This document shows, one piece after another, positions 6,562 through 23,060 of a stretch of DNA of 23,467 nucleotides. The position numbers were made by a program, and so were the translations under genes. Position 1 is the stretch's first letter; each line of letters starts with the position of its first letter. The DNA comes from Deltaproteobacteria bacterium (GTDB taxonomy: Bacteria > Myxococcota_A > JAADFL01): assembly GCA_013152945.1 (NCBI GenBank), contig JAADFL010000111.1, positions 1 to 23,467 on the forward strand. Direction: 5' to 3'. Below the pieces are notes generated by a model. It worked only from the letters and a program-made list of their open reading frames with translations. It made no database searches and was not told the DNA's origin.

Positions 6562-6577
6562 TGGCATGATGCTTGCT
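6562..6577 (+). promoter_or_regulatory. Sigma-54 (-24/-12) promoter of the nitric oxide reductase gene
   Basis: TGGCATGATGCTTGCT differs from the RpoN consensus TGGCACRNNNNTTGCW at one position (T for the last C of TGGCAC). The invariant GG (6563-6564) and GC (6575-6576) are exactly 10 bp apart. Transcription would start near 6588, leaving a leader of about 50 nt with an AGGAGG ribosome-binding site before the ATG at 6639. Confidence 0.65.
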
Positions 6578-6638
6578 GATTCACAAGTCCCTGGTGCGAA
6601 CATTTGCAATCTTTGATTATTGGATACAGGAGGTCTTG

Positions 6639-8918
6639 ATGCCGTCTATCAACAAACTCAAGTGGGGCGCAGTGGTTAGTTTTATCGTGGCAATGATTGT
6701 CATTCTTGGAGCAGGCATCTCTGCATATAGGCAGATGGCGCCTTATCCTGGAAAAGTGGTAGGCCCAAAAGGGGACACCCTGATGACCAGGGAGGACATC
6801 CTGGCCGGTCAGGATGTGTATCAGAAGTATGGCCTCATGGACCATGGCAGCGTATGGGGCCACGGGTCCCAGCGGGGGCCCGAGTTCTCGGCCCTTACAT
6901 TGCACAAGGTGGGAAAGGTTGTCCGCGGTGAGATTGCAAAGGAAAAGTACGGCAAGAAATTCTCCGGGCTTGTTCCCCTGGAGCAGAAAGTGGTTAATTT
7001 AAGGACAGGCGAGCACATAAAGAAAAATCGGTACGACGAGTCATCCGATGTACTTTATCTCACAAAAGAGCAAACGATTGCCTTTGAAAAGGTGGTGACG
7101 TACTGGAAGCAGGTCTTTGAAACAGGCCTGAAGGATTATGGAATTCTCCCAAACACGGTTTCGGGTGCCCTCGAGCGGGAAAACCTGGCCAAGTTCTTTT
7201 TCTGGACCGCCTGGGTGGCATCCACTGCAAGGCCTGGCGAGACCTATTCATATACCAACAACTGGCCGCACGATGAAACAGTGGGCAACAACGCACCTAC
7301 CTCCACTTACCTATGGAGTATCGGTGGAATACTATCCCTGTTCCTTGTGCTGGGTTTCTTTATCTGGTTCGTGCACCGTTACAAGATGTGGTATGGCGGG
7401 GCCAAGGGGCCCAGGCTGGCCGAGAAACTCATTGAAATGCCGCTTACGTCCAGCCAACGAAAGTCGGCGAAGTTCTTACTCGTCGTTATCCTGTTGTTTT
7501 TGACACAGACTTTATTCGGCGGGTTGCTGGCGCACTACACGGTCAGTCCGGGCAGCTTCTACATGGATTTCGTTGCGAACCTGATACCATATAGTTGGGC
7601 CAAGACATGGCACCTTCAGCTAGCGATTTTCTGGATTGCCACGACCTGGGTGGCATCTGCAATATACCTGGCCCCTATTATAGGAGGAAAGGAACCTAAA
7701 GGTCAGGGCGTACTGGTTCAAATATTGTTCGTAGCGATTATTTTGGTTGCAGTGGGAAGCTTGGCGGGCGAAGTGCTGGGTATCAAGGACAAGCTGGGTG
7801 ATTTTTGGTTTTGGTTCGGTCACCAGGGTTGGGAATTTCTGGAACTGGGCAGGGTATGGCAAATTCTGTTGTTCGTTGGCCTGATTGCCTGGCTTTTCAT
7901 TGTTTACCGGGCTGTGGCGAGCCACCTGAAAGCCAAGCACAATGACGAGTATTCATCTTTGATCTGGTTCTATGTTTTCTCTGCTGTCATGGTAGTGGCG
8001 TTCTTTGGGTTCGGCCTGTTTTACGGAAGGGGGACCCACCTTACCTTGGCTGATTACTGGCGTTGGTTCGTGGTACACATCTGGGTGGAGAGCATCTTCG
8101 AGTTTTTCGGCGTCGCCGTGATTTCTCTCCTCCTGGTAAGCATGGGCCTTGTGTCCGCCAAGTCCGCATTGAGGACCGCCTACTTTACTGCGGCGCTTAC
8201 GTTTCTTAGTGGAATAATCGGTACGGCCCACCATTACTACTGGTTCGGTGGACCGTCTTTTTGGGTTGGCATAGGCAGTGTGTTCTCGTCCATGGAGCCT
8301 GTCCCACTCTTCGGATTGGTTGTAAGAGCCTTGTTGGAGTACAAGGCAATTCGGGATGAGGGACGTGAGTTCCCATACAAGTGGCCCATGTACTTCCTGG
8401 TGGCATCATCGTTCTGGAATTTCCTTGGCGCAGGAGTGTTCGGGTTCCTTATCAACCTGCCGATAGTGAACTACTATGAACACGGCACGTATCTCACCAT
8501 GAACCACGCCCATGCAGCCATGTTCGGGACATACGGCATGCTTTCGATTGCACTGTTGCTGTTCTCATGGCGTGGCATGGTCAAGAAGGAATATTGGAGC
8601 GACAAGATACTGAAGGTCTCTTTTTACGGTCTAAACGTTGGCTTGCTTCTCCTCACGTTGGGAACCTTGTTTCCGGTCGGCATCATCCAAGCCTGGATCA
8701 GCTATGATCAGGGCTTGTGGATGGCAAGGGATGCCTCTTTCTTCCAAAAGGGTGCGATCACATTCCTGGGCCATGCAAGGATAATCGCGGACTCTGTGAT
8801 CATACTGCTGGGTGTAGTGCCTCTTGCTTACTTTCTTCTCACTACGTTCAATAAGCTAAAGCCAAAGGGTATTGCAGACGGTGAATCTGTGTGGAAGGAG
8901 CTGGGAGTCGATCTTTAG
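6639..8918 (+). CDS. norZ: Quinol-dependent nitric oxide reductase (qNOR)
   Basis: A 759-residue membrane enzyme that reduces two NO to N2O with electrons from quinol. After an N-terminal membrane anchor comes a soluble domain equivalent to NorC but without a CxxCH haem c motif, which marks the quinol type. The C-terminal NorB-like part has many membrane helices and all expected ligands: H325 (HLQLAIFW) and H625 for low-spin haem b, H623 for haem b3 (NHAHAAMFG), and H480, H531, H532 with E484 for the non-haem iron (HIWVE; AHHYYWFG). Length is normal. The ATG at 6639 follows AGGAGG by 5 nt; earlier in-frame starts lack a site. It is a single gene with a sigma-54-type promoter and a terminator-like hairpin after it. 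Likely role: NO detoxification or respiration. Confidence 0.93.
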   Translation: MPSINKLKWGAVVSFIVAMIVILGAGISAYRQMAPYPGKVVGPKGDTLMTREDILAGQDVYQKYGLMDHGSVWGHGSQRGPEFSALTLHKVGKVVRGEIAKEKYGKKFSGLVPLEQKVVNLRTGEHIKKNRYDESSDVLYLTKEQTIAFEKVVTYWKQVFETGLKDYGILPNTVSGALERENLAKFFFWTAWVASTARPGETYSYTNNWPHDETVGNNAPTSTYLWSIGGILSLFLVLGFFIWFVHRYKMWYGGAKGPRLAEKLIEMPLTSSQRKSAKFLLVVILLFLTQTLFGGLLAHYTVSPGSFYMDFVANLIPYSWAKTWHLQLAIFWIATTWVASAIYLAPIIGGKEPKGQGVLVQILFVAIILVAVGSLAGEVLGIKDKLGDFWFWFGHQGWEFLELGRVWQILLFVGLIAWLFIVYRAVASHLKAKHNDEYSSLIWFYVFSAVMVVAFFGFGLFYGRGTHLTLADYWRWFVVHIWVESIFEFFGVAVISLLLVSMGLVSAKSALRTAYFTAALTFLSGIIGTAHHYYWFGGPSFWVGIGSVFSSMEPVPLFGLVVRALLEYKAIRDEGREFPYKWPMYFLVASSFWNFLGAGVFGFLINLPIVNYYEHGTYLTMNHAHAAMFGTYGMLSIALLLFSWRGMVKKEYWSDKILKVSFYGLNVGLLLLTLGTLFPVGIIQAWISYDQGLWMARDASFFQKGAITFLGHARIIADSVIILLGVVPLAYFLLTTFNKLKPKGIADGESVWKELGVDL

Positions 8919-9075: not shown

Positions 9076-10485
9076 ATGGCTCGCGTGGTCTTCGTCCAGG
9101 ACATTCATTACGAACAAATCGGAATAATGAGCCTTTCTGCGTACTTGAGGCAAGCCGGGCACAAGACGAGTCTGGTCATAGGCACGGGGAAAAGGGTTGC
9201 CAAGGCTGTTATCAAGGAGAAGCCAGACCTGGTTGCGCTCTCCGTGATGTCCTACCAGCGCGCATGGGCTAAAAACCTTGTGCAGGAGTTGAAGCGTCTC
9301 GGATTAAGGGCTCCAATTCTTGGGGGCGGGATACATCTTACTCAAAATCCCGATGATTACGCATTATTGGGTCTTGACTCTATTTGCAGGGGTGAAGGTG
9401 AGGAAGCTCTGCTCGAAGCGGTTCAAGTCATCGGGAATGGTCATGGCCTGGAAAGTGTTGCAAATTTCAGTGGGCCGGGTTTCAGTAATGCCCCAAGGCC
9501 GCTGATGCAAAACCTGGATGACCTGCCCTTTCTGGACAGGAGTATATATGAACGTTATTTGTTCTTCAGGGTGACCAGGGTGCGACAGGTCATGGCTTCG
9601 AGGGGCTGTCCCTTTTCGTGTCCGTACTGTCACAATGTTCACGTGCGTAGATTGTATCCCAAGGGTACACGCTGGGTCAGGATGTACAGCCCGGGCAGGG
9701 TGGTGGAAGAGCTGGAGGCTGTGAAAAAAGACTATTCTCCGGCGATATTCAGGTTTCAAGACGATCTTTTCGGCATGGATGTACATTGGCTGCATGAATT
9801 CCTGGAATTGTATAGGAGACGCGCGGTAGGTGTCTCTTTCCAGGTGCAGACACGCGCGGATACGCTGGATGAAGCAATGGTCAAAGAGCTTGCGGACGCC
9901 GGTTGCGTTACTGTTACCGTGGGCCTTGAAACAGGCGACGAGGGCTTGCGGAACAAGGTCCTGGGCAAGGGCGTCGCAGATGAAACGTACTTGAAGCTGG
10001 CCCAGGCCTGCAAGCGGTACGGACTCGGGTTCACTACAAATAACATGTTCGGGCTTCCCGGAGAGGGCGTGGACCAGGCCATCAAGACCGTATCTTTCAA
10101 TGCCAGGCTCAAAACAGCCAGGATGGACAATGATATATTCAAGCCGTATCGAGGGCTCGACCTCACGAAAAAGGCTATCTTGGACGGTCTTTTAAAAGAA
10201 GGAGACTTGGATCGCCTGGACGAGTCTGCATTCAAGATGCGGAGGAGTATCTTGCGTCATCCCGAGATACACAGGGTGGAAAACGTGCACAAGTTGTCCA
10301 TATTGGGTGCCAGGGTACCCGCATTGATACCGCTCCTGAGGCATCTGTCGCGGGTTCCTCCAAACCCGGTGTTCGATGGTCTCTTTCTCTTGACGGCTTT
10401 TACCGAGTATCTTAGGAATGACCTGTGGATAAACCCGGTTGAAACATTGTTGCGGTTGGTTCTGAACATACGTGCCGTCTTGTAG
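9076..10485 (+). CDS. B12-binding-type radical SAM protein (first of three)
   Basis: A 469-residue class B-type radical SAM protein. Residues 1-130 look like a cobalamin-binding Rossmann domain (strand VVFVQDIHYE, LGGGIHLT, then RGEGEEALLEAV), without the DxHxxG haem-like cobalamin ligand motif, as usual in this class. The radical SAM motif is C178-x3-C182-x2-C185 (SRGCPFSCPYC), followed by strands FRFQDDLFG and VGLETGDEG. These enzymes perform difficult methylations or rearrangements, often on lipids, tetrapyrroles or natural products; the substrate here is unknown. The ATG at 9076 is the first start after an in-frame stop, and no Shine-Dalgarno precedes it. Two paralogues follow in the same direction, suggesting one pathway. 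Confidence 0.85.
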   Translation: MARVVFVQDIHYEQIGIMSLSAYLRQAGHKTSLVIGTGKRVAKAVIKEKPDLVALSVMSYQRAWAKNLVQELKRLGLRAPILGGGIHLTQNPDDYALLGLDSICRGEGEEALLEAVQVIGNGHGLESVANFSGPGFSNAPRPLMQNLDDLPFLDRSIYERYLFFRVTRVRQVMASRGCPFSCPYCHNVHVRRLYPKGTRWVRMYSPGRVVEELEAVKKDYSPAIFRFQDDLFGMDVHWLHEFLELYRRRAVGVSFQVQTRADTLDEAMVKELADAGCVTVTVGLETGDEGLRNKVLGKGVADETYLKLAQACKRYGLGFTTNNMFGLPGEGVDQAIKTVSFNARLKTARMDNDIFKPYRGLDLTKKAILDGLLKEGDLDRLDESAFKMRRSILRHPEIHRVENVHKLSILGARVPALIPLLRHLSRVPPNPVFDGLFLLTAFTEYLRNDLWINPVETLLRLVLNIRAVL

Positions 10486-10489
10486 CACA

Positions 10490-10507
10490 TCAAGCAATAG
10501 TGCTTGA
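10490..10507. repeat. Short hairpin between radical SAM genes
   Basis: TCAAGCA and TGCTTGA are perfect reverse complements around ATAG. There is no T-run, so it is more likely an RNA processing or stabilising hairpin, or a binding site, than a terminator. Confidence 0.4.
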
Positions 10508-10536
10508 CAGGTAGTCGAGCGTGCAATTAGCATCCG

Positions 10537-11997
10537 TTGTCCATTAAGGTTGGTATCCTTTTTGGCGACGTGAGGCTAGTGATGGATGTTGTCCTGGGCT
10601 GCCCTTTTCCAAGGCCTTATGGGATCGACCTGGGCTTGGGATACCTTGCCACGGCCCTTAGGCGTAATGGCCTGGCGGTTGAGATAGAAGATTTATGCCG
10701 GCCGTTTTCAAGCCCCAAATCCTTTGCAGCCAAGGTGGCGGTATCGAGGCCAAAGGTCGTGGGGTTCAAGGTATGGACCCCTGCTTTGGGTCTTGTGAGG
10801 AAGTACGTGCGTGCTGTCAGGGAGGCTGTTCCCGGTGTGCAACTGATTGTCGGAGGTCCCCACGTAACCGCCGTGGGCAGGGGGGTGTTCGAGGATATTT
10901 CTTCCGGCGGTATCGACTATGCGTTCAGGGGCGAGGCAGAAGAAGGCCTGCCTGTCCTTGTTCGGGAAGTGCTTCGGGGAAAAAGTCCGAGGAAAAACGT
11001 GTTACAGGGAATACCCGGTCTAATCTGGCGGGATGAAGGCAGGGTGCGGAGTAATAGCCAGTCATTTGTCGAAAACCTGGATGATCTTGGCTCTCCTGCC
11101 TGGGACCTTTTCGACTTCGACAGGTACCATAATCTCAAGTCGTACAGCCTGTCCAGGGGTGGGACGTCAGGGATCAGTTGGTTCCATGTTCAGGCCACCA
11201 GGGGATGCCCAAATCACTGCACGTATTGCCTTGCCCCCCGGCTTGCAGGCTCAAGGCTTCGCAAGCACAGTCCGGGCGTCCTGGCCTCCCAGCTTGAGAA
11301 CCTGAGAAAAAGTCACGGGGTAACTCACGTAGCCTTTGCAGACGATAATTTAACCCAGGACCGTGAATATGCACTCTCTCTCTTCTCCAAAATAGGCGGT
11401 ACCGGCGTCTCGTGGGACTGTACTTCCAATGGCGTGGACTTTAGGACAATTGACCGGGAGCTTGTAAAGGCCATGATATCCGCCGGATGCACTGCGATTA
11501 CCTTTGGCGTGGAATCCGGCTCAGAGCATGTACTCAAGCTGATGAACCGGAATTACTCGCCAAAGGATGTGAAAAGGGCGATTAGAGAAGTCAGGGCTGC
11601 AGGGAACTTGTGGCTCGAGAGTTTTTTCATCATTGGATTTCCGGGAGAGACATCGAGGGATATTCTGGATACGTTGCACCTTGTCGCCACACTGGACGTG
11701 GACCAGGCGAACTTCAATCTGTTCACGCCTTGGCCGGGTATTCCAATAACCCGGAAATTACAGCGGGAGGGCAAGCTGTCCGAGGTGCTGCCGAGCCAGG
11801 CATGGTACGAGAAGCCTACGAAGTACAAGGGTTCACTGTCTCCTTGGCAGCAGGGTTTGTATTTTGTGGGTGCACACGTTGTATTTTATTCCAGGCCTTC
11901 GAGGCTGCTGCGTATTCTACATAAGCTCGGCCTGAAGGGAGTGATCGTTGGTGTCGACCTGGTCTTGTTGAATGTGTTCTTGAAGGCCAGGGATTAG
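10537..11997 (+). CDS. B12-binding-type radical SAM protein (second of three)
   Basis: A 486-residue paralogue of its neighbours. The N-terminal 150 residues form the B12-binding-like domain (IKVGILFGDV; DLGLGYLATALRRNG; LIVGGPHVTAV; FRGEAEEGLPVLV). The radical SAM cluster motif is C224-x3-C228-x2-C231 (ATRGCPNHCTYC), followed by AFADDNLTQD and FGVESGSEHVLKLM, typical strand motifs of the family. The chosen start is a TTG at 10537, only 9 bp after an in-frame stop and with no ribosome-binding site. It keeps the first beta strand; the GTG/ATG pair at 10579/10582 is the alternative but would remove that strand. The substrate is unknown; methylation or C-C bond chemistry is likely from the class. 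Confidence 0.83.
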   Translation: MSIKVGILFGDVRLVMDVVLGCPFPRPYGIDLGLGYLATALRRNGLAVEIEDLCRPFSSPKSFAAKVAVSRPKVVGFKVWTPALGLVRKYVRAVREAVPGVQLIVGGPHVTAVGRGVFEDISSGGIDYAFRGEAEEGLPVLVREVLRGKSPRKNVLQGIPGLIWRDEGRVRSNSQSFVENLDDLGSPAWDLFDFDRYHNLKSYSLSRGGTSGISWFHVQATRGCPNHCTYCLAPRLAGSRLRKHSPGVLASQLENLRKSHGVTHVAFADDNLTQDREYALSLFSKIGGTGVSWDCTSNGVDFRTIDRELVKAMISAGCTAITFGVESGSEHVLKLMNRNYSPKDVKRAIREVRAAGNLWLESFFIIGFPGETSRDILDTLHLVATLDVDQANFNLFTPWPGIPITRKLQREGKLSEVLPSQAWYEKPTKYKGSLSPWQQGLYFVGAHVVFYSRPSRLLRILHKLGLKGVIVGVDLVLLNVFLKARD

Positions 11998-12038
11998 CGA
12001 GGGCTTCACTTCAACTCCATTTCGTGGCACGGCCCTCG
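11998..12038. repeat. Inverted repeat after the second radical SAM gene
   Basis: CGAGGGC (11998-12004) pairs with GCCCTCG (12032-12038), and CGTGGCACG inside can form a smaller stem. No T-run follows, so termination is doubtful. The remaining bases up to 12133 show nothing else clear. Confidence 0.35.
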
Positions 12039-12133
12039 TGTATCGTCGCCTGTCTTGACAATGTACTCTCGGTTACGTTAATTACTTCAAGCTCTTTCGC
12101 TGCCCCGGGAGATATTTTGGGAGTTGCCGGCAA

Positions 12134-13603
12134 ATGAAGGTTCTTCTTGTCAGGCCAAAACCTTGGCTCGTGGACCATATATTAAACAAGCCATACCAGG
12201 ATAAGATGGACATATTATGGGTCAGGCGGTATCCGCCTGCAGGACTCGCCCATTGTGCGGCATTCCTGGAACAGGCAGGGCACGAGGTAAAAATAATAGA
12301 CGGCGAAACCCTTTGGCTGCCTGTCGAAGCTGCGCAGTATGAAGCCGGGAAGTTCAATCCGGACCTGGTAATAGGCCAGGTCAATTTCATGAACCCTGTC
12401 GACGATCATTTGTATGTCTCGTCAGTGGCCCGAACAGTAGGGGTTCCCCTGGTGTTGCGGGGGCACTTGGGGAGGAACTACCCGGAAGAAGCAGCTTTGA
12501 TGGACGGTGCAACAGGGGTTCTTACCGGAAAGGGCCTGGTATCCGCGGTTGATGTTGCGAATGTGCTGGAAAACGGAGGCGACCTGGCAACCGTGGCAGG
12601 GCTTGCATTCAGAAAAAATGATAAAGTTGTTATCACCGGGCCCGAGCGCTTGGGTGAACCAGACTCCTGGCCTTTACCGGCGCGTCATCTTTTGGACAAC
12701 GGCGCATACATGTGCCTTGCCGTGAGGCGGCATCCGTTTACCACTTTGCACGGTTCGGGAGGTTGTCCCCATAGGTGCGTGTATTGTATCGACTCCAAAA
12801 CACGGTACTGGGCCAGATCGCCGAAAAGCATTGTGCAGGAAATGGAAATCTGCCGGAAAGACCTGGGAATACGCGAGTTCTCTTTCCTGGACCCCATGTT
12901 CAATATTACCGAGGAAAGGACGGCACAGGTCTGCGAAGCGATAATCAAGTCAAAACTTGATATTTCATTTACCATAAAGGCGAGAGCCGATGTGATCGAC
13001 GGATCCATGGCAAAGCTGTTGGCCAGGGCCGGATGCACGAGGGTCGGAATAGGGATCGAGAGCGGCAGCGAAGAGGTACTCGGCGACCTGCACAGAGAGA
13101 TGAGCCTGGGAACGATTGAACGGGCGGTGCAGGCCCTCAAAGCAGCAGGGATAATGGTCATGGGTTACGTGCAGGTCGGCAACGTGGGTGAAACATGGAG
13201 TACTTTTTCAAGGACCATGGACTTTACCCTAGGCCTGAAACTCGACCTGATCGCAGTGGGTGTTACGATACCTTTGCCGGGAACGGAAATTCATCGCCGT
13301 CTCCTTGAAGAGGGCAGGCCCGATCCATGGCTGATTCGCTTGAGGGTGAAACCAGGGACGCCTGTGGATGCGGAATCCATGAGGCCGGCCGGTGTAGACG
13401 TGGGAAGAGAGAAACTCGAAGAGTGGCGGGATCTCTTGTACAAACGTTTTTTCATGCATCCTTCGTACATGCGTAACATTGTCTTTACCAGGCAACCATG
13501 GGTAAGTATGCATCGCCTGCCAAAGGTGGCTTGGACCAACTTTAGGACCCGGGCCAAGGGTTTCCTGGAGAAGCAGGTTTTCATACATGGCGGCATAGTA
13601 TGA
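12134..13603 (+). CDS. B12-binding-type radical SAM protein (third of three)
   Basis: A 489-residue protein. The B12-binding-like domain spans about 1-150 (MKVLLVRPKP; YPPAGLAHCAAFLEQAGHEV; PDLVIGQVNF). The radical SAM motif is C211-x3-C215-x2-C218 (GGCPHRCVYC), followed by SFLDPMFNIT and GIGIESGSEEVLGDL. An internal stretch 'LDLIAVGVTIPLPGTEIHRRL' type strand-turn near the C-terminus is a common feature of the class. GGGAG lies about 10 nt before the ATG, giving the best-supported start of the three. It lies 136 bp after the second copy, so it may have its own promoter. As with its paralogues the substrate is unknown. The presence of three related enzymes in a row suggests successive steps on one product. 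Confidence 0.85.
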   Translation: MKVLLVRPKPWLVDHILNKPYQDKMDILWVRRYPPAGLAHCAAFLEQAGHEVKIIDGETLWLPVEAAQYEAGKFNPDLVIGQVNFMNPVDDHLYVSSVARTVGVPLVLRGHLGRNYPEEAALMDGATGVLTGKGLVSAVDVANVLENGGDLATVAGLAFRKNDKVVITGPERLGEPDSWPLPARHLLDNGAYMCLAVRRHPFTTLHGSGGCPHRCVYCIDSKTRYWARSPKSIVQEMEICRKDLGIREFSFLDPMFNITEERTAQVCEAIIKSKLDISFTIKARADVIDGSMAKLLARAGCTRVGIGIESGSEEVLGDLHREMSLGTIERAVQALKAAGIMVMGYVQVGNVGETWSTFSRTMDFTLGLKLDLIAVGVTIPLPGTEIHRRLLEEGRPDPWLIRLRVKPGTPVDAESMRPAGVDVGREKLEEWRDLLYKRFFMHPSYMRNIVFTRQPWVSMHRLPKVAWTNFRTRAKGFLEKQVFIHGGIV

Positions 13604-14489: not shown

Positions 14490-17400
14490 TTATTCTCTTT
14501 CTTCCCCTATTTCCCGGGGAACAGGTGCGGTTTTGGCCAGTGGGAAGCGGGGAAGCACGACAGCGAATCTCGATACACTGGCCATGTCGCCCGGCTCCAG
14601 TTCGGCCGGCCACTTGGCAGGGGACTTGGGCCTGCCTGCCAAGGGGAATAGAGCCAGCCTGTTTTCAGGCACTGCATACCTTGATTGTATCAATGCCATG
14701 CCGAATTGCTTGTGGGCTACTCCTGCAATGCTGGTTACAGTGCCGATACACTTGCCAGTACCGGCATCGGCTACCGGGCTACCCGGCCTTGGCACCCTGC
14801 CGCGATCGTCCTCCAACTCGAAGCAAACGATCTTCCGGTCTTGGTGTCGCACCCATTCGAGGCACTTGCTTCTTCCGATAAAAAACGGCTTATGGAGCTT
14901 GACGAATCCGCCGTACCCCGCCTCGACAGGGGAAACATTGTTGGGGCCGGCCAGTTCATGGCCGTGCAAGGGCAGACCTGCCTCTGTCCTGGTGGAATCA
15001 CGTGCAGCCAAGCCTGCCGGAATCACTCCAAGATCGTTGCCGGCCTCGAGGATGCTTCTCCAAACAACGGGACCTGCATCGGGATGCACGTACAACTCGA
15101 ATCCGATTCTCTCGCCTGTATATCCAGTTCTTGAAATAATTGCATGAGCACCCTTGATCTCTGTCTCCATGAACCAGAACGGACGAAGTTCTCCCAGTCG
15201 CCTTACAGCATCCGGGTCTTTGACCAGCCTGGCCAATGTTTGAAAAGATGCCGGGCCTTGTAAGGCCATGTCGATCCTCTGGTCGTCACCGCTGGACGGG
15301 TCCTTGAGGTTTCGTATTGTGGCGCCGCCTTCCATGCGACGCCATGTATTGTTGAAATCCACGTCCACGTCACCCTGGTTTACGGCGCGCAGCCAGGCCT
15401 CGTCTTCCTCTGCATTGGCTGCATTTACCACTACCATGAACCTGTCCCGGGACCTCCTGTATACCAGGATGTCATCTATTACCCGGCCGTCAGGGGCCAA
15501 GAGGTACGAGTAGTGGGCCTTGTTGTCGAAAAGGGCCGGGACATAGTTCGTGGTGGCAAGGTTCAGGAATCGCTCCGCCCGTGGACCGGTGACCTCGAGC
15601 ACACCCATGTGGCTGACATCGAATAGGCCTGCTGTCATTCTTACAGCCTGGTGCTCTTCTGCAAGCCCCTTGTACCTCATGGGCATGAGCCAGCCTGCGA
15701 ACGGGGCCATGGCATGCTTGGTAGTCAGTTTTACGTGCTCATCGTACAGGCAGGTCATTCTTGCTTCCTCTTTTGCCGGTTCGAATGTAAATGTTTTACT
15801 TGTTTTTGGAGCCGGCTTGTTTTGAAACACGGCTTGCTGACCGATGAAAAAAGTCTTTTCAGCCAGATCCGCTTTTTCGGCCACGATTTGGGCAGATGCA
15901 CCTGATAAAGTGCTTCCGCCAGGAGCTTTCGGCAAATCACCTCTTTTTTTGAGTTCATCGAGTCTGTCAGGAAATTCCATCGTCAAATCATGGATCACGG
16001 CAGGACCGGCTGCCTTTGCGTACAGGTCCCCGGCGATCTTTACATAACCATCGGATAGTTCACGCAGCCATGCCAGTACAAACCCGGGGTCGCCGGCCTC
16101 CAGGGTCAAAATAAAATCCGTCCTGCAGCCTGCCCGATCCTTCAGTCTCTTTATCCTTCCTTCGGCAATACACTTTCCTGAAGCCGAGAGCACGAGGGTG
16201 TCGATTTCGTTTCCGGGACCAAGGGAGAAGACATCTGCAGTGCAAGCATCATTGAGCAAATGGGCCGATCTCCGTCCCCTGACCTCGATTACCAGGGGAT
16301 GATTATTGGACCATTCTTGACCGCTATTGTGAAGAAAATACGGGTAGGAAGCAAGTTCGCCTTCATGCGGGTCGACCGAAAAAAGAAGCTTCTCCACGTC
16401 GGCTCTCACATCCGCCAAAACCGCGGGATCGATCTTGCCTCTGCCTTGTGGAGCAGCTCCGCCGAGGTACTCGAATGGCTCAATGGCTTTTAGCACTCTT
16501 GCTATAAGTTTTGCCAATTCGATCATATGTTTTTCTGTCATTCCCCTCTGGCTGACCCAGGTGGTGCCCAGCCTGATTGCGCTGGGATGGGCTGCATTGG
16601 TGTCACCCCTGATTGTATTCTTGTTACATGTAATTTGTGCCAGGTCGAGTATCCTGGAGGCTGTCTCACCGGTCAGGCTGATACCTTCGGAGCCTTTCAA
16701 GGGTGTTAAATCCAGGAGCAGCATGTGGGTGTTCGTGCCCCCGTACGCGAGCTTGAGACCCTGGTCTTCCAAGCTCCCGGCAAGGGCTGCGGCATTCTCC
16801 TGCACCTGCTTCATCATTGTTTTGAATTCCCGGGATGCGGCAATCTTGAAGGCAACCGCCTTGGCTGCCATGGTGTGGAGGTGTGGACCTCCCTGTTCGC
16901 CGGGAAAGACCGCCATGTTTATTCTCTTGGCCTTTTCAGGGTCTGTGCAAAGGATGACCGCACCCCTGGGCCCGCACATCGTCTTATGGGTGGTGAAGCT
17001 TACTACATCGGCGTGACCGATTGGACTGTTGACATGACCCGCCGCCACCAGCCCGGCGGTGTGCGCAATATCCGCCAGGAGTATCGGCTTGCCAGGCACC
17101 TTGTCTGCAATCTCTCTGAAACGTTGCCAGTCTATGTCCCATGGGTATGCCGAGAATCCGGCGATTATCAGCTTGGGCCTTGTGGCCAAGGCTGTTTTTT
17201 CGATAGCATCATAATCCAGTGACCCCTTGGCGCTTACTTCGTAAGAGAAGACATCGTATCTCTTGCCGGAACGGTTTACCGGGCTTCCATGCGTGAGGTG
17301 ACCCCCATGGGCCAATGTCAGGCCCAATACTCTGTCACCGGGATCCAGAAAAGCTTCGTACACCGCATTGTTCGCTGCAGCTCCGGACATTGGTTGCACA

Positions 17401-17780
17401 TTTGCAAATATTCGTTCCGGTGGAATATCATCGTTGGCAAATACCTCTGCAACTCTTCTTTTTGCAAGGGCTTCCAGGATGTCCGCATATTCACAACCCT
17501 TGTAATACCTTGGATCGCCGTACCTTCTGACGTAAGAGAGCTGCTCGGCCAGGTCTTGGATTTCTTCTTCAGTGGAGCTTGACAAGAGCCTGGATGGATA
17601 TCCTTCCGCATAGATGTGGGAAAACGATCCTGCCAGGGCATCCTTGACGGCCTTGGGAGAAATGCTCTCGGACGCTATCAATATAATCTTTCTCGCCTGC
17701 CTTTGTTTCTCAATACCTTCAAGGCGGCTCATGAACGGATCCATTTCTTCAAGACCAAGCCCAAGTATTCGATCTGCCAT
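14490..17780 (-). CDS. glyA-gcvT: Fused serine hydroxymethyltransferase - glycine-cleavage T protein
   Basis: One uninterrupted frame of 1096 residues. Residues 1-440 are a complete serine hydroxymethyltransferase: ASESISP, YAEGYPSR, D237 and H240 of LADIAHTAGL, and the PLP lysine K266 in FTTHKTMCGPRG. Residues 495-585 resemble the N-terminal half of GcvT (VIEVRGRRSAHLLNDACTAD) but are degenerate, with a FIGQ remnant at 645-648. From 675 to about 1080 is a full T protein: LYDEHVKL, PFAGWLMPMRYKG, D769-D770 (VIDDILVY), SRTGYTGE, GLAARDSTRTEAG and KPFFIGR. GlyA makes glycine and methylene-H4folate from serine; GcvT makes methylene-H4folate from the aminomethyl group on H-protein. No gcvH or gcvP is in the window. 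AAGGAGAG precedes the start. SHMT alone is about 415 residues and GcvT about 365. Confidence 0.92.
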   Translation of the reverse strand: MADRILGLGLEEMDPFMSRLEGIEKQRQARKIILIASESISPKAVKDALAGSFSHIYAEGYPSRLLSSSTEEEIQDLAEQLSYVRRYGDPRYYKGCEYADILEALAKRRVAEVFANDDIPPERIFANVQPMSGAAANNAVYEAFLDPGDRVLGLTLAHGGHLTHGSPVNRSGKRYDVFSYEVSAKGSLDYDAIEKTALATRPKLIIAGFSAYPWDIDWQRFREIADKVPGKPILLADIAHTAGLVAAGHVNSPIGHADVVSFTTHKTMCGPRGAVILCTDPEKAKRINMAVFPGEQGGPHLHTMAAKAVAFKIAASREFKTMMKQVQENAAALAGSLEDQGLKLAYGGTNTHMLLLDLTPLKGSEGISLTGETASRILDLAQITCNKNTIRGDTNAAHPSAIRLGTTWVSQRGMTEKHMIELAKLIARVLKAIEPFEYLGGAAPQGRGKIDPAVLADVRADVEKLLFSVDPHEGELASYPYFLHNSGQEWSNNHPLVIEVRGRRSAHLLNDACTADVFSLGPGNEIDTLVLSASGKCIAEGRIKRLKDRAGCRTDFILTLEAGDPGFVLAWLRELSDGYVKIAGDLYAKAAGPAVIHDLTMEFPDRLDELKKRGDLPKAPGGSTLSGASAQIVAEKADLAEKTFFIGQQAVFQNKPAPKTSKTFTFEPAKEEARMTCLYDEHVKLTTKHAMAPFAGWLMPMRYKGLAEEHQAVRMTAGLFDVSHMGVLEVTGPRAERFLNLATTNYVPALFDNKAHYSYLLAPDGRVIDDILVYRRSRDRFMVVVNAANAEEDEAWLRAVNQGDVDVDFNNTWRRMEGGATIRNLKDPSSGDDQRIDMALQGPASFQTLARLVKDPDAVRRLGELRPFWFMETEIKGAHAIISRTGYTGERIGFELYVHPDAGPVVWRSILEAGNDLGVIPAGLAARDSTRTEAGLPLHGHELAGPNNVSPVEAGYGGFVKLHKPFFIGRSKCLEWVRHQDRKIVCFELEDDRGRVPRPGSPVADAGTGKCIGTVTSIAGVAHKQFGMALIQSRYAVPENRLALFPLAGRPKSPAKWPAELEPGDMASVSRFAVVLPRFPLAKTAPVPREIGEERE
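15756..15770 (-). promoter_or_regulatory. Internal ribosome-binding site and ATG for a free T protein
   Basis: Inside the fusion gene, AAAAGAGG lies 8 nt before an in-frame ATG (residue 675). The protein that would begin there starts MTCLYDEHVKL, just as stand-alone GcvT proteins do. A second product of 422 residues may therefore be made from the same mRNA. Confidence 0.4.
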
Positions 17781-17838
17781 TATAGGTCTCTCCTTTCCTT
17801 CGTGCCGGCCTCTTGAAAGTCGTGCCAGGGCCGGTGCA

Positions 17839-20054: not shown

Positions 20055-20118
20055 GTATAAGAAATAATAGAGGTACCGGTTCAAAAAGGTGTCTCTTGGA
20101 ATGCCAGGGAGGAATGAG

Positions 20119-21006
20119 ATGGCTGCACAGGTGATTTCAGGAAAAAAAGTTGCCAAGGAGATTAGGGAAGAGCTCAAAATCGAAACTGAAAAGCTCATCC
20201 GGGATACAGGGGTTCAGCCTGGTCTGGTTACGATTTTGGTCGGCGAAAACCCTGCTTCAGTAAGCTATGTGACCGCCAAGGGCAAGGCGGCAAAGAAACT
20301 CGGGTTCAATTCGATACAGGAAAACGTGCCGGCGGACATATCAGAGGAGAATCTCCTGGCTCTGGTGGAAAAGTACAATAATGATTCATCGATACATGGA
20401 ATACTGGTTCAACTCCCGATTCCAAAGCACATCAATGATAAAAAGATTCTCTATGCAATCGATCCCGACAAAGACGTGGATGCTTTCCATCCCATGAACG
20501 TGGGGCGCATGGTGATAGGCGAGCCTGTATTTCTACCTTGCACGCCGGCAGGAATACAAGAGTTGATCGTCCGTAGCGGAGTGAACACGGAAGGTGCGGA
20601 GGTCGTGGTTGTCGGCCGTTCCAATATCGTGGGCAAACCTATCGCCAACATGATGCTTCAAAAGGCAAAGGGCGCCAACTCTACTGTCACCGTGGTCCAC
20701 ACAAGGACCAGGGACATGGCCGAACACACCAGACGTGCCGATATCCTTATCGTGGCTGCAGGCGCACCAAAGGCGGTGACAGCAGACATGGTCAAGGAAG
20801 GCGCCGCCGTAATAGACGTGGGAGTGAATAGGATCGGAACCACCGAGTCCGGCAAGGCCAAGCTGTGCGGCGACGTGGACTACGAACCCGTGGCGGAGAA
20901 GGCCGGGTACATCACCCCGGTTCCGGGCGGCGTCGGCCCAATGACCATTACTATGCTGATGAAGAACACGTTGAAAGCGGCACAGGTTGCTGCGTCAAAG
21001 AAGTGA
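20119..21006 (+). CDS. folD: Methylene-H4folate dehydrogenase / methenyl-H4folate cyclohydrolase
   Basis: A 295-residue bifunctional cytosolic enzyme that interconverts methylene-, methenyl- and formyl-H4folate using NAD(P). The catalytic residues sit at the same numbers as in E. coli FolD: Y50 and K54 (SYVTAK), Q98 (VQLP) and D121 (DVDAFHP). The dinucleotide-binding loop VVVGRSNIVGKP and the folate-site block PVPGGVGPMT are intact. Length is standard. The ATG at 20119 follows GGGAGG by 6 nt, better than the earlier in-frame GTG at 20089. It is the first gene of a tight operon with CODH/ACS genes, which points to use in the methyl branch of the Wood-Ljungdahl pathway in either direction. A long structured leader precedes it. 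Confidence 0.96.
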   Translation: MAAQVISGKKVAKEIREELKIETEKLIRDTGVQPGLVTILVGENPASVSYVTAKGKAAKKLGFNSIQENVPADISEENLLALVEKYNNDSSIHGILVQLPIPKHINDKKILYAIDPDKDVDAFHPMNVGRMVIGEPVFLPCTPAGIQELIVRSGVNTEGAEVVVVGRSNIVGKPIANMMLQKAKGANSTVTVVHTRTRDMAEHTRRADILIVAAGAPKAVTADMVKEGAAVIDVGVNRIGTTESGKAKLCGDVDYEPVAEKAGYITPVPGGVGPMTITMLMKNTLKAAQVAASKK

Positions 21007-21022
21007 AAGCGGAGTTGATGAT

Positions 21023-21790
21023 TTGAAGGGGCGCGTGATAGCTGTTGCCGGTAAGGGCGGAACAGGTAAGACTACTATTGGTGCTTTGCTCATCAGGTCG
21101 GCGTTGAAATCCAAGGTCGAGCCCATATTGGCTGTGGATGCGGATCCGAACTATTGTCTTGGTGAGGCAATGGGAATGGATGTGGGAGAGACTGTGGGCC
21201 TGTTGCGGGAGGATTTCGGCAAGCTGGGGTCCGATCTTCCTCCAGGTATGTCCAAGGCCAATTACCTGGAAATGCAAGCCAACAAGGCTGTGGTTGAAGG
21301 TGATGGCGTCGATTTGGTTACCATGGGCAGGCAAGAGGGACCGGGCTGCTATTGCTTCGCAAATGACGTGCTTCGCTCTGTCGTCGACAACTTGCAGGAC
21401 AACTATCCACTGGTAGTAGTTGACAACGAGGCAGGGTTGGAGCACTTGAGCAGGCGTACCACGCGGCATGTGGACTGGATGGTAATGGTATCGGATCCTG
21501 CGCCAAAGGGCTTACGTGCAATAGAGAGAGTGCTGGGACTGATAGGTGAACTCAAACTGGATGTTAGGAAGAAGAGCCTGGTTATAAACAGGGTCCCGGA
21601 AAAGGGGCTGGATCCTGCACTGTTGGAACGTGCTGAAAAGATGCGCTTGGATGCTCCGCCGCTCTTGGTTCCGGCAGACCATGAAATCGAAAAGAAGGAC
21701 ATTGCCGGGGAATCTTTGCTGGATATTGAAAATTGTCAATCCTGCGGGCTGGTGGATGAGCTTTTCTCCCAAATCATGGAAAGAACGTGA
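21023..21790 (+). CDS. cooC: CooC/AcsF-type ATPase for nickel insertion into CODH/ACS
   Basis: A 255-residue SIMIBI-class ATPase (MinD/ParA-like). The deviant Walker A loop is AGKGGTGKTT (residues 9-18), followed by VDADPNYCLGEAMG. A Cys-x-Cys pair (C109, C111 in GPGCYCFAND) is the metal-binding site of CooC and its homologues at the dimer interface, and VVVDNEAGLEHLSRR is the Walker B-like region. A second pair C237-x2-C240 (CQSCG) lies near the C-terminus. Such proteins load nickel into carbon monoxide dehydrogenase or acetyl-CoA synthase. The start is a TTG at 21023 with GGAG 8 nt upstream, giving a gap of 16 bp after folD; a start at 20987 would overlap folD. The symbol cooC is by family, as CooC and AcsF cannot be separated by eye. 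Confidence 0.88.
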   Translation: MKGRVIAVAGKGGTGKTTIGALLIRSALKSKVEPILAVDADPNYCLGEAMGMDVGETVGLLREDFGKLGSDLPPGMSKANYLEMQANKAVVEGDGVDLVTMGRQEGPGCYCFANDVLRSVVDNLQDNYPLVVVDNEAGLEHLSRRTTRHVDWMVMVSDPAPKGLRAIERVLGLIGELKLDVRKKSLVINRVPEKGLDPALLERAEKMRLDAPPLLVPADHEIEKKDIAGESLLDIENCQSCGLVDELFSQIMERT

Positions 21791-22106: not shown

Positions 22107-23060
22107 ATGGCAATTGAAATTCCGAAAAAAGTTTATGCGGGAAATGTAAGGGAGATCACTATCGGTGATGGAGATCATACCATAAAAGTCGGTGGCGAGA
22201 CGACCATGCCGTTTCACCTGTTCGAAGGAGAGATGCCGAATCCTCCCAAATTCGCCCTCGAAGTGAACGACGTGGAACCCAAGGAATGGGCAGACACATT
22301 GAAAGAGGTATACGGGGATGTCTGGTCCGACCCGGCTGCATGGGCGAAAAGGTGTGTGGAGTTAGGGGCTGACCTCATACACTTCGAAATGGTGGGCACT
22401 GATCCCAACGGCATGGACCGGCCTGCGGCAGAGGCTGCCGACGTGGCAAAGAAGGTTATTGATGCGGTTTCCTGCCCCGTGGTCATCTGGGGAACAGCCA
22501 ACCATGAAAAAGACGTGGAGGTCTTGAGGCTCATTGCAGAGCAGAACCAGGACAGAAAGCTGATTCTCGGTCCGGTGGAGGAAGGGGACTACAAGCAGCT
22601 AGGAGCGGCCTCAATCGGTTTCGGTCACACGATAGTGGCGTCTTCCCCCATAGATGTGAACCTTGCAAAACAGCTCAATATCCTTCTTGGCAACCTTGGG
22701 GTCAAAGATGACAAGATATTGATAGATCCGACAGTAGGCGGCATAGGCTATGGCCTGGAATATTCATATTCGGTAATAGAACGTTGCAAGCTGGCAGCCC
22801 TTGCCCAGGAGGACGAGCGATTACAGTTTCCGCTGTACTGCAACCTGGGTCGGGAGGTTTGGAAGACAAAGGAGGCCAAGGTGTCGCAAGACCAGATGCC
22901 TGAATTGGGTGATCCAAAGGAGCGTGGCATAGCCCTCGAGGTTCTGACAGCAACGTCATTGCTGCTGGCCGGTGGAGATATTTTCGTCATGCGTCATCCG
23001 AAGTCCATGGAACACATGCGAAAGTTGGTCGCAGATCTCACTGAGGGAGGAACGGCATGA
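22107..23060 (+). CDS. acsD: CODH/ACS delta subunit, corrinoid iron-sulfur protein small subunit
   Basis: A 317-residue protein, the normal length for AcsD/CdhD. It opens with YAGNVREITIG and the block GGETTMPFHLFEGEMPNPP, which is highly characteristic of the family. It then shows TIM-barrel strands such as DLIHFEMVGTDPNG, PVVIWGTANHEKDVEVL, KLILGPVEEGDYKQLG and ILIDPTVGGIGYGLEYSYSV. With the large subunit AcsC it forms the corrinoid protein that takes a methyl group from methyl-H4folate and gives it to acetyl-CoA synthase. AAGGGG precedes the ATG. Its stop overlaps the next start (ATGA), so the two are translationally coupled. AcsC and the catalytic subunits are not in the window. Confidence 0.95.
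   Translation: MAIEIPKKVYAGNVREITIGDGDHTIKVGGETTMPFHLFEGEMPNPPKFALEVNDVEPKEWADTLKEVYGDVWSDPAAWAKRCVELGADLIHFEMVGTDPNGMDRPAAEAADVAKKVIDAVSCPVVIWGTANHEKDVEVLRLIAEQNQDRKLILGPVEEGDYKQLGAASIGFGHTIVASSPIDVNLAKQLNILLGNLGVKDDKILIDPTVGGIGYGLEYSYSVIERCKLAALAQEDERLQFPLYCNLGREVWKTKEAKVSQDQMPELGDPKERGIALEVLTATSLLLAGGDIFVMRHPKSMEHMRKLVADLTEGGTA

Follow-up and report, generated by a model that had tools for sequence, protein, structure and literature searches.

The flow of glycine, serine and folate-bound one-carbon units lies at the heart of metabolism in every cell, and engineers of carbon fixation have made the reductive glycine pathway one of their targets. The locus analysed here raises the question of whether serine hydroxymethyltransferase (SHMT) and the T protein of the glycine cleavage system (GcvT) are carried on one polypeptide, and what such a union would do. 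It lies in a stretch of 23,467 nucleotides, hereafter the window, from Deltaproteobacteria bacterium (GCA_013152945.1, contig JAADFL010000111.1), whose genome comprises 218 contigs and is 94% complete. Our comparisons of sequence indicate, with a probability of about 85%, that the gene encodes a bifunctional SHMT/glycine-cleavage T protein on a single chain, its two enzymes joined by a decayed T-protein domain.

Architecture and active sites of the fused enzyme

The gene and its parts, all on the reverse strand, are arranged as follows.
14490..17780 (-): predicted SHMT–pseudo-GcvT–GcvT fusion gene; a single ATG frame of 1096 aa with 0 internal stops
17790..17795 (-): AAGGAG, Shine-Dalgarno-like, 10-15 nt ahead of the fusion ATG, read from the sequence
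16446..17780 (-): SHMT domain, aa 1-445 (PF00464; structural match aa 7-467)
17511..17588 (-): insert of ~26 aa (aa 65-90), from the YAEGYP motif to RYYKG (E. coli Y65), by alignment
16983..16985 (-): Lys266, the PLP Schiff-base lysine, equivalent to E. coli GlyA K229 by alignment; invariant in 71/71 fusions
15777..16445 (-): middle domain, aa 446-668, a predicted reduced GcvT folate-binding domain (PF01571, fold match)
14910..15749 (-): GcvT aminomethyltransferase folate-binding domain, aa 678-957 (Pfam GCV_T)
15471..15476 (-): Asp769-Asp770, equivalent to the E. coli GcvT D97-D98 pair by alignment; invariant in 71/71 fusions
14655..14837 (-): GCV_T_C C-terminal barrel, aa 982-1042 (weak Pfam match)

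The original prediction held that both enzymes are intact within one frame, and this was borne out by the open reading frame, by the Pfam and NCBIfam scores and by the aligned catalytic residues; the whole chain also gave a confident AF2 model (pLDDT 89.5, pTM 0.90). The SHMT part scored 395.9 bits against PF00464 (cut-off 27) and 426.8 against NCBIfam NF000586 (cut-off 335), and a structure search with the predicted model aligned 403 residues with B. stearothermophilus SHMT at a VIA Z of 57.0 and an rmsd of 1.3. E. coli GlyA residues K229, D200, H203, R363, Y55, E57, Y65 and H126 aligned with K266, D237, H240, R403, Y57, E59, Y93 and H161 of the fusion, respectively, and the active-site positions tallied were invariant or nearly so across 71 fusions. 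Compared to GlyA, the SHMT part shares the fold, the PLP lysine, the other active-site residues and a score above the subfamily cut-off, but has two more C-terminal domains and the ~26-aa insert ahead of Tyr65, which the aligned fused SHMTs have and E. coli GlyA lacks. This insert may mark a contact with the T domain and, lying near SHMT Y65, could alter activity. As SHMT is usually dimeric or tetrameric, the T domains may be turned towards the folate entrance of an adjacent SHMT subunit close to the insert.

The T-protein part was recognized by PF01571 (GCV_T) at 253.8 bits and by the gcvT equivalog TIGR00528 at 250.7 (cut-off 235.85), and scored 286.9 against the subfamily model NF001567, under its cut-off of 300. 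Its folate-site residues D769/D770, N786, Y887 and R927/D928, corresponding to D97/D98, N114, Y189 and the Arg/Asp at 224-225 of the E. coli protein, were invariant in 71 fusions. Of the domains originally proposed for a search, SHMT and GCV_T were found, GCV_T_C reached 23.9 bits, just under the Pfam cut-off of 25.9, in a region modelled as strands, and a third, degenerate GCV_T-like domain proved to have been missed. The T part resembles GcvT in its complete folate-binding domain, catalytic Asp pair and score above the equivalog cut-off, whereas it is not a free protein of ~360 aa and carries an insert with an NLKDP motif as well as an HKPFF motif. We infer that the chain has both activities. 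Other T-like functions were rejected, DMSP demethylase and LigM scoring far below GcvT. A tRNA was the sole match in an Rfam scan of the window, with no glycine riboswitch detected, and promoter and terminator predictions in the window gave matches at chance level only.

The middle domain

Because the fold search with the whole model was filled by SHMT chains, the middle domain was folded separately with 48 homologues (pLDDT 82.7) and searched alone. T proteins, sarcosine oxidase, dimethylglycine dehydrogenase (DMGDH) and YgfZ were retrieved at VIA Z 12-14.6, the best match being the T protein 1wos (VIA Z 14.6, 144 residues aligned, rmsd 3.6), and the first other fold, MnmE, followed at 6.8. 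Against PF01571 the domain scored 21.9 bits in the window protein and 104-164 bits in long homologues (L059, L097, L108, L064 and L055), in which the matches span most or nearly all of it. By profile score and modelled fold, the middle domain is thus a second GcvT folate-binding domain. It shares its fold with YgfZ and IBA57 (Z 13.1 and 12.1, respectively) and sits inside a fusion. The signature of YgfZ is a cysteine motif, KGC[FY]xGQ (KGCxxGQ), whereas the middle domain reads KTFFIGQ in the window protein and KPYFVGQ in the consensus, lacking the motif Cys.

The domain most likely arose by duplication of a GcvT folate-binding domain and then lost catalysis. It is near-complete in about half of the family and reduced in the rest, including the window protein, where about half of it is lost; across the fusions its length ranges from 198 to 430 aa. 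The Asp pair is replaced in the window protein (GKCIAEG), kept in 20 of 71 homologues and missing in the other 51. A role as a spacer or docking piece is most likely. The variable length and the frequent loss of the Asp pair would suit a protein in which fusion merely fixes stoichiometry and co-expression, with no direct transfer between the sites and the middle domain an inert spacer, a reading to which we give slightly less than an even chance. However, the preserved fold and the residues Y579, K589, G592 and P593, invariant across many phyla, go beyond what would be expected of a plain spacer.

Partner genes and spread of the fused family

In the source genome, the fusion is the only GCV_T-domain protein and the only SHMT over the cut-off, so both jobs must fall to it, barring a further glyA or gcvT, which the missing 6% could hold. 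A check for gcvH and gcvP, suggested along with the original prediction, found both and no separate gcvT: gcvH, gcvPA and gcvPB are clustered on contig C158, with no gcvT beside them. Judged by this gene content, the glycine cleavage system of the source genome very likely uses the T part of the fusion. If this is true, annotation would need correcting, as tools that expect a gcvT of ordinary short length would report fusion lineages to have an incomplete glycine cleavage system. Outside the gcvH-gcvPA-gcvPB cluster, two adjoining GCV_H-type lipoyl-domain proteins in larger frames of 433 and 363 aa (L034 and L035) were also noted at C187:29811-31140.

The other genomes with fusions were similar in their T-protein complement, 39 of 41 having no over-cut-off GCV_T beyond fusions or contig-cut pieces (the exceptions being G378 and G409), and the P protein (GDC-P) was likewise present in 39 of 41 (all except G401 and G406). 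A count of the listed matches shows 24 of 42 genomes with no SHMT besides the fusion and 18 with a separate one; six of these 18 are archaeal MAGs with weak matches. In view of these 18 genomes, the fused SHMT may not be the principal one in every case. At five loci from different groups (L076, L098, L109, L112 and L125), the fusion has gcvH and/or gcvPA/gcvPB as close neighbours, no more than a few kb away.

A scan of 84,980 GTDB species genomes with two fused-type GcvT motifs yielded 162 relatives, and the 80 best were retained. Among these, 73 loci encode SHMT, middle domain and GcvT as a single frame of about 1050-1330 aa; six run off contig ends and one (L067) is broken, and none of the 80 is a demonstrably unfused member. 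Given that the window comes from a fragmented genome of 218 contigs, we considered whether the frame might be an error of sequencing or assembly, or two adjacent genes run together by chance. However, the 73 full-length homologous fusions reside in separate assemblies and chance or misassembly is therefore excluded for the window gene; moreover, fusions also occur on large chromosomal contigs (L093, L108 and L112), and the linking middle domain is itself conserved, with invariant residues. We regard an artefact as vanishingly improbable.

According to record labels, many of them broad or old MAG names and a few possibly misbinned, the hosts belong to Chloroflexota, Myxococcota, Bipolaricaulota, Thermoplasmatota, Planctomycetota, Spirochaetota, Poribacteria, Bdellovibrionota, Bacillota and Actinomycetota. 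Within the phylum of the source genome the fusion is rare: three others among 377 evenly drawn genomes (G001, G200 and G007) have it or a contig-cut piece, and the copy in G007 (Myxococcales SURF_8) is apparently a fusion truncated where its contig stops. In a tblastn search of plasmids, only separate glyA and gcvT genes were matched, with no full-length cover of the fusion. The original prediction had allowed that a survey might show the architecture to be common and already characterized; it is indeed widespread, and a literature search, with most subscription journals and preprints outside its scope, found no description of it. Each enzyme is textbook knowledge, and the papers searched seem to contain no account of the fused architecture with its pseudo-T domain. 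If our reading is true, nature has joined SHMT and T protein on one chain in archaea as well as in many uncultured phyla, and the result would be a ready-made module.

In trees built with few separate enzymes and with fused sequences collected by motif, the fused SHMTs formed one clade apart from 38 separate SHMTs (SH-aLRT 98). The fused GcvTs fell on one side of a branch from the sampled separate enzymes with support of 80, and a branch with support of 100 lies beyond one odd 'separate' row that is likely a fusion fragment. These data fit a single fusion event that would have been followed by vertical and horizontal spread. C_L142, which is located at the end of a contig, was rejected as a separate GcvT and most probably represents a fragment of a second fusion in the same genome.

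Two fusion copies are apparently present in some Chloroflexota and Bipolaricaulota genomes (G383, G387, G380 and G400; L069, L075, L061 and L099/L101); in G380 and G400, a contig end truncates one of the copies. In the broken locus L067, from a Euryarchaeota MAG (G382), the SHMT part is incomplete and its N-terminal half lies ~570 kb away on the same contig, reflecting either a rearrangement or an assembly error.

Coupling of the two sites and metabolic context

On the bifunctional chain, the T part would catalyze aminomethyl-lipoyl-H protein + H4folate <-> CH2-H4folate + NH3, and the SHMT part CH2-H4folate + glycine <-> serine + H4folate; together with the P, H and L proteins, the outcome would be 2 glycine <-> serine + CO2 + NH3. 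H4folate and CH2-H4folate would cycle 1:1 between two sites on the same protein, and a 1:1 fusion would be the natural stoichiometry because one turnover of each enzyme closes the folate cycle. In plant mitochondria, the glycine decarboxylase complex (GDC) and SHMT are separate proteins that share H4folate and convert two glycine into serine, CO2 and NH3. The reaction pair proposed for the fusion is the same, whereas the T protein and SHMT, separate in plants, are fused here.

A GcvT-type folate domain fused to an enzyme that produces one-carbon units is also found in dimethylglycine oxidase, DMGDH and heterotetrameric sarcosine oxidase, the structures of which the middle domain matches; their partner is an FAD oxidase, whereas that of the fusion is a folate-using PLP enzyme. 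Such GcvT-domain oxidase fusions work by a folate-coupled mechanism. They provide precedents for the idea that the fusion channels H4folate and methylene-H4folate from one active site to the other, the middle domain perhaps acting as a folate relay, and that this was the selective reason for joining the T and SHMT parts. Consistent with this idea, both active sites would share one folate pair in 1:1 stoichiometry, and the middle domain keeps the T-protein fold and, in the minority of members noted above, its Asp pair as well. Furthermore, free CH2-H4folate breaks down to formaldehyde, and this decay is the main formaldehyde source in the reconstituted glycine cleavage system (PMC7227101), which offers one rationale for having both sites on a single protein. 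However, in the window protein the middle domain is without its Asp pair and reduced by about half, and we hold channelling to be tentative and somewhat improbable. If the bifunctional reading is true, the fusion would allow a direct test of folate channelling between SHMT and T protein.

The surroundings of the gene raise a further possibility, that the protein serves mainly the methyl branch of the Wood-Ljungdahl pathway, through serine and glycine feeding CH2-H4folate or through reductive glycine synthesis. Three genes on the opposite strand bear on it.
20089..21006 (+): folD, methylene-H4folate dehydrogenase/cyclohydrolase (Pfam, NCBIfam)
20987..21790 (+): CooC-like MinD/ParA-family ATPase (Pfam, NCBIfam; name from context)
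22107..23060 (+): acsD/cdhD, CO dehydrogenase/acetyl-CoA synthase delta subunit (Pfam, NCBIfam)

As originally noted, folD and acsD lie on the other strand, 2.3 kb and 4.3 kb from the fusion, respectively. Further markers of the acetyl-CoA pathway, ACS (CdhC) and formyl-H4folate synthetase (FTHFS), are encoded elsewhere in the source genome, and in another Myxococcota genome (L071) folD, a CooC-like gene and acsD are divergent from the fusion in an arrangement close to that of the window. These genes give indirect support to a Wood-Ljungdahl link, which is plausible. However, with the queries used, such a neighbourhood was found at only 1 of 73 other loci, fewer than have gcvH/gcvPA/gcvPB near the fusion, and adjacency is silent on the direction of flux. 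We consider a main role in this branch unlikely.

A broader scenario would make the fusions an ancient, horizontally spread family in which the pseudo-T domain hands folate between the SHMT and T sites, so that CH2-H4folate would never be released during 2 glycine <-> serine + CO2 + NH3, and which would form the sole way into or out of glycine and serine in numerous anaerobes that use acetyl-CoA or reductive glycine metabolism; we regard this as speculative and decidedly doubtful.

The window holds other genes on the far side of the fusion from this trio. Positions 6573-8918 encode a 781-aa membrane protein that, by its sequence, appears to resemble quinol-dependent nitric oxide reductase or haem-copper oxidase subunit I, and positions 9076-13603 contain three consecutive B12-binding radical SAM-like genes, the third of which was confirmed by Pfam and NCBIfam.
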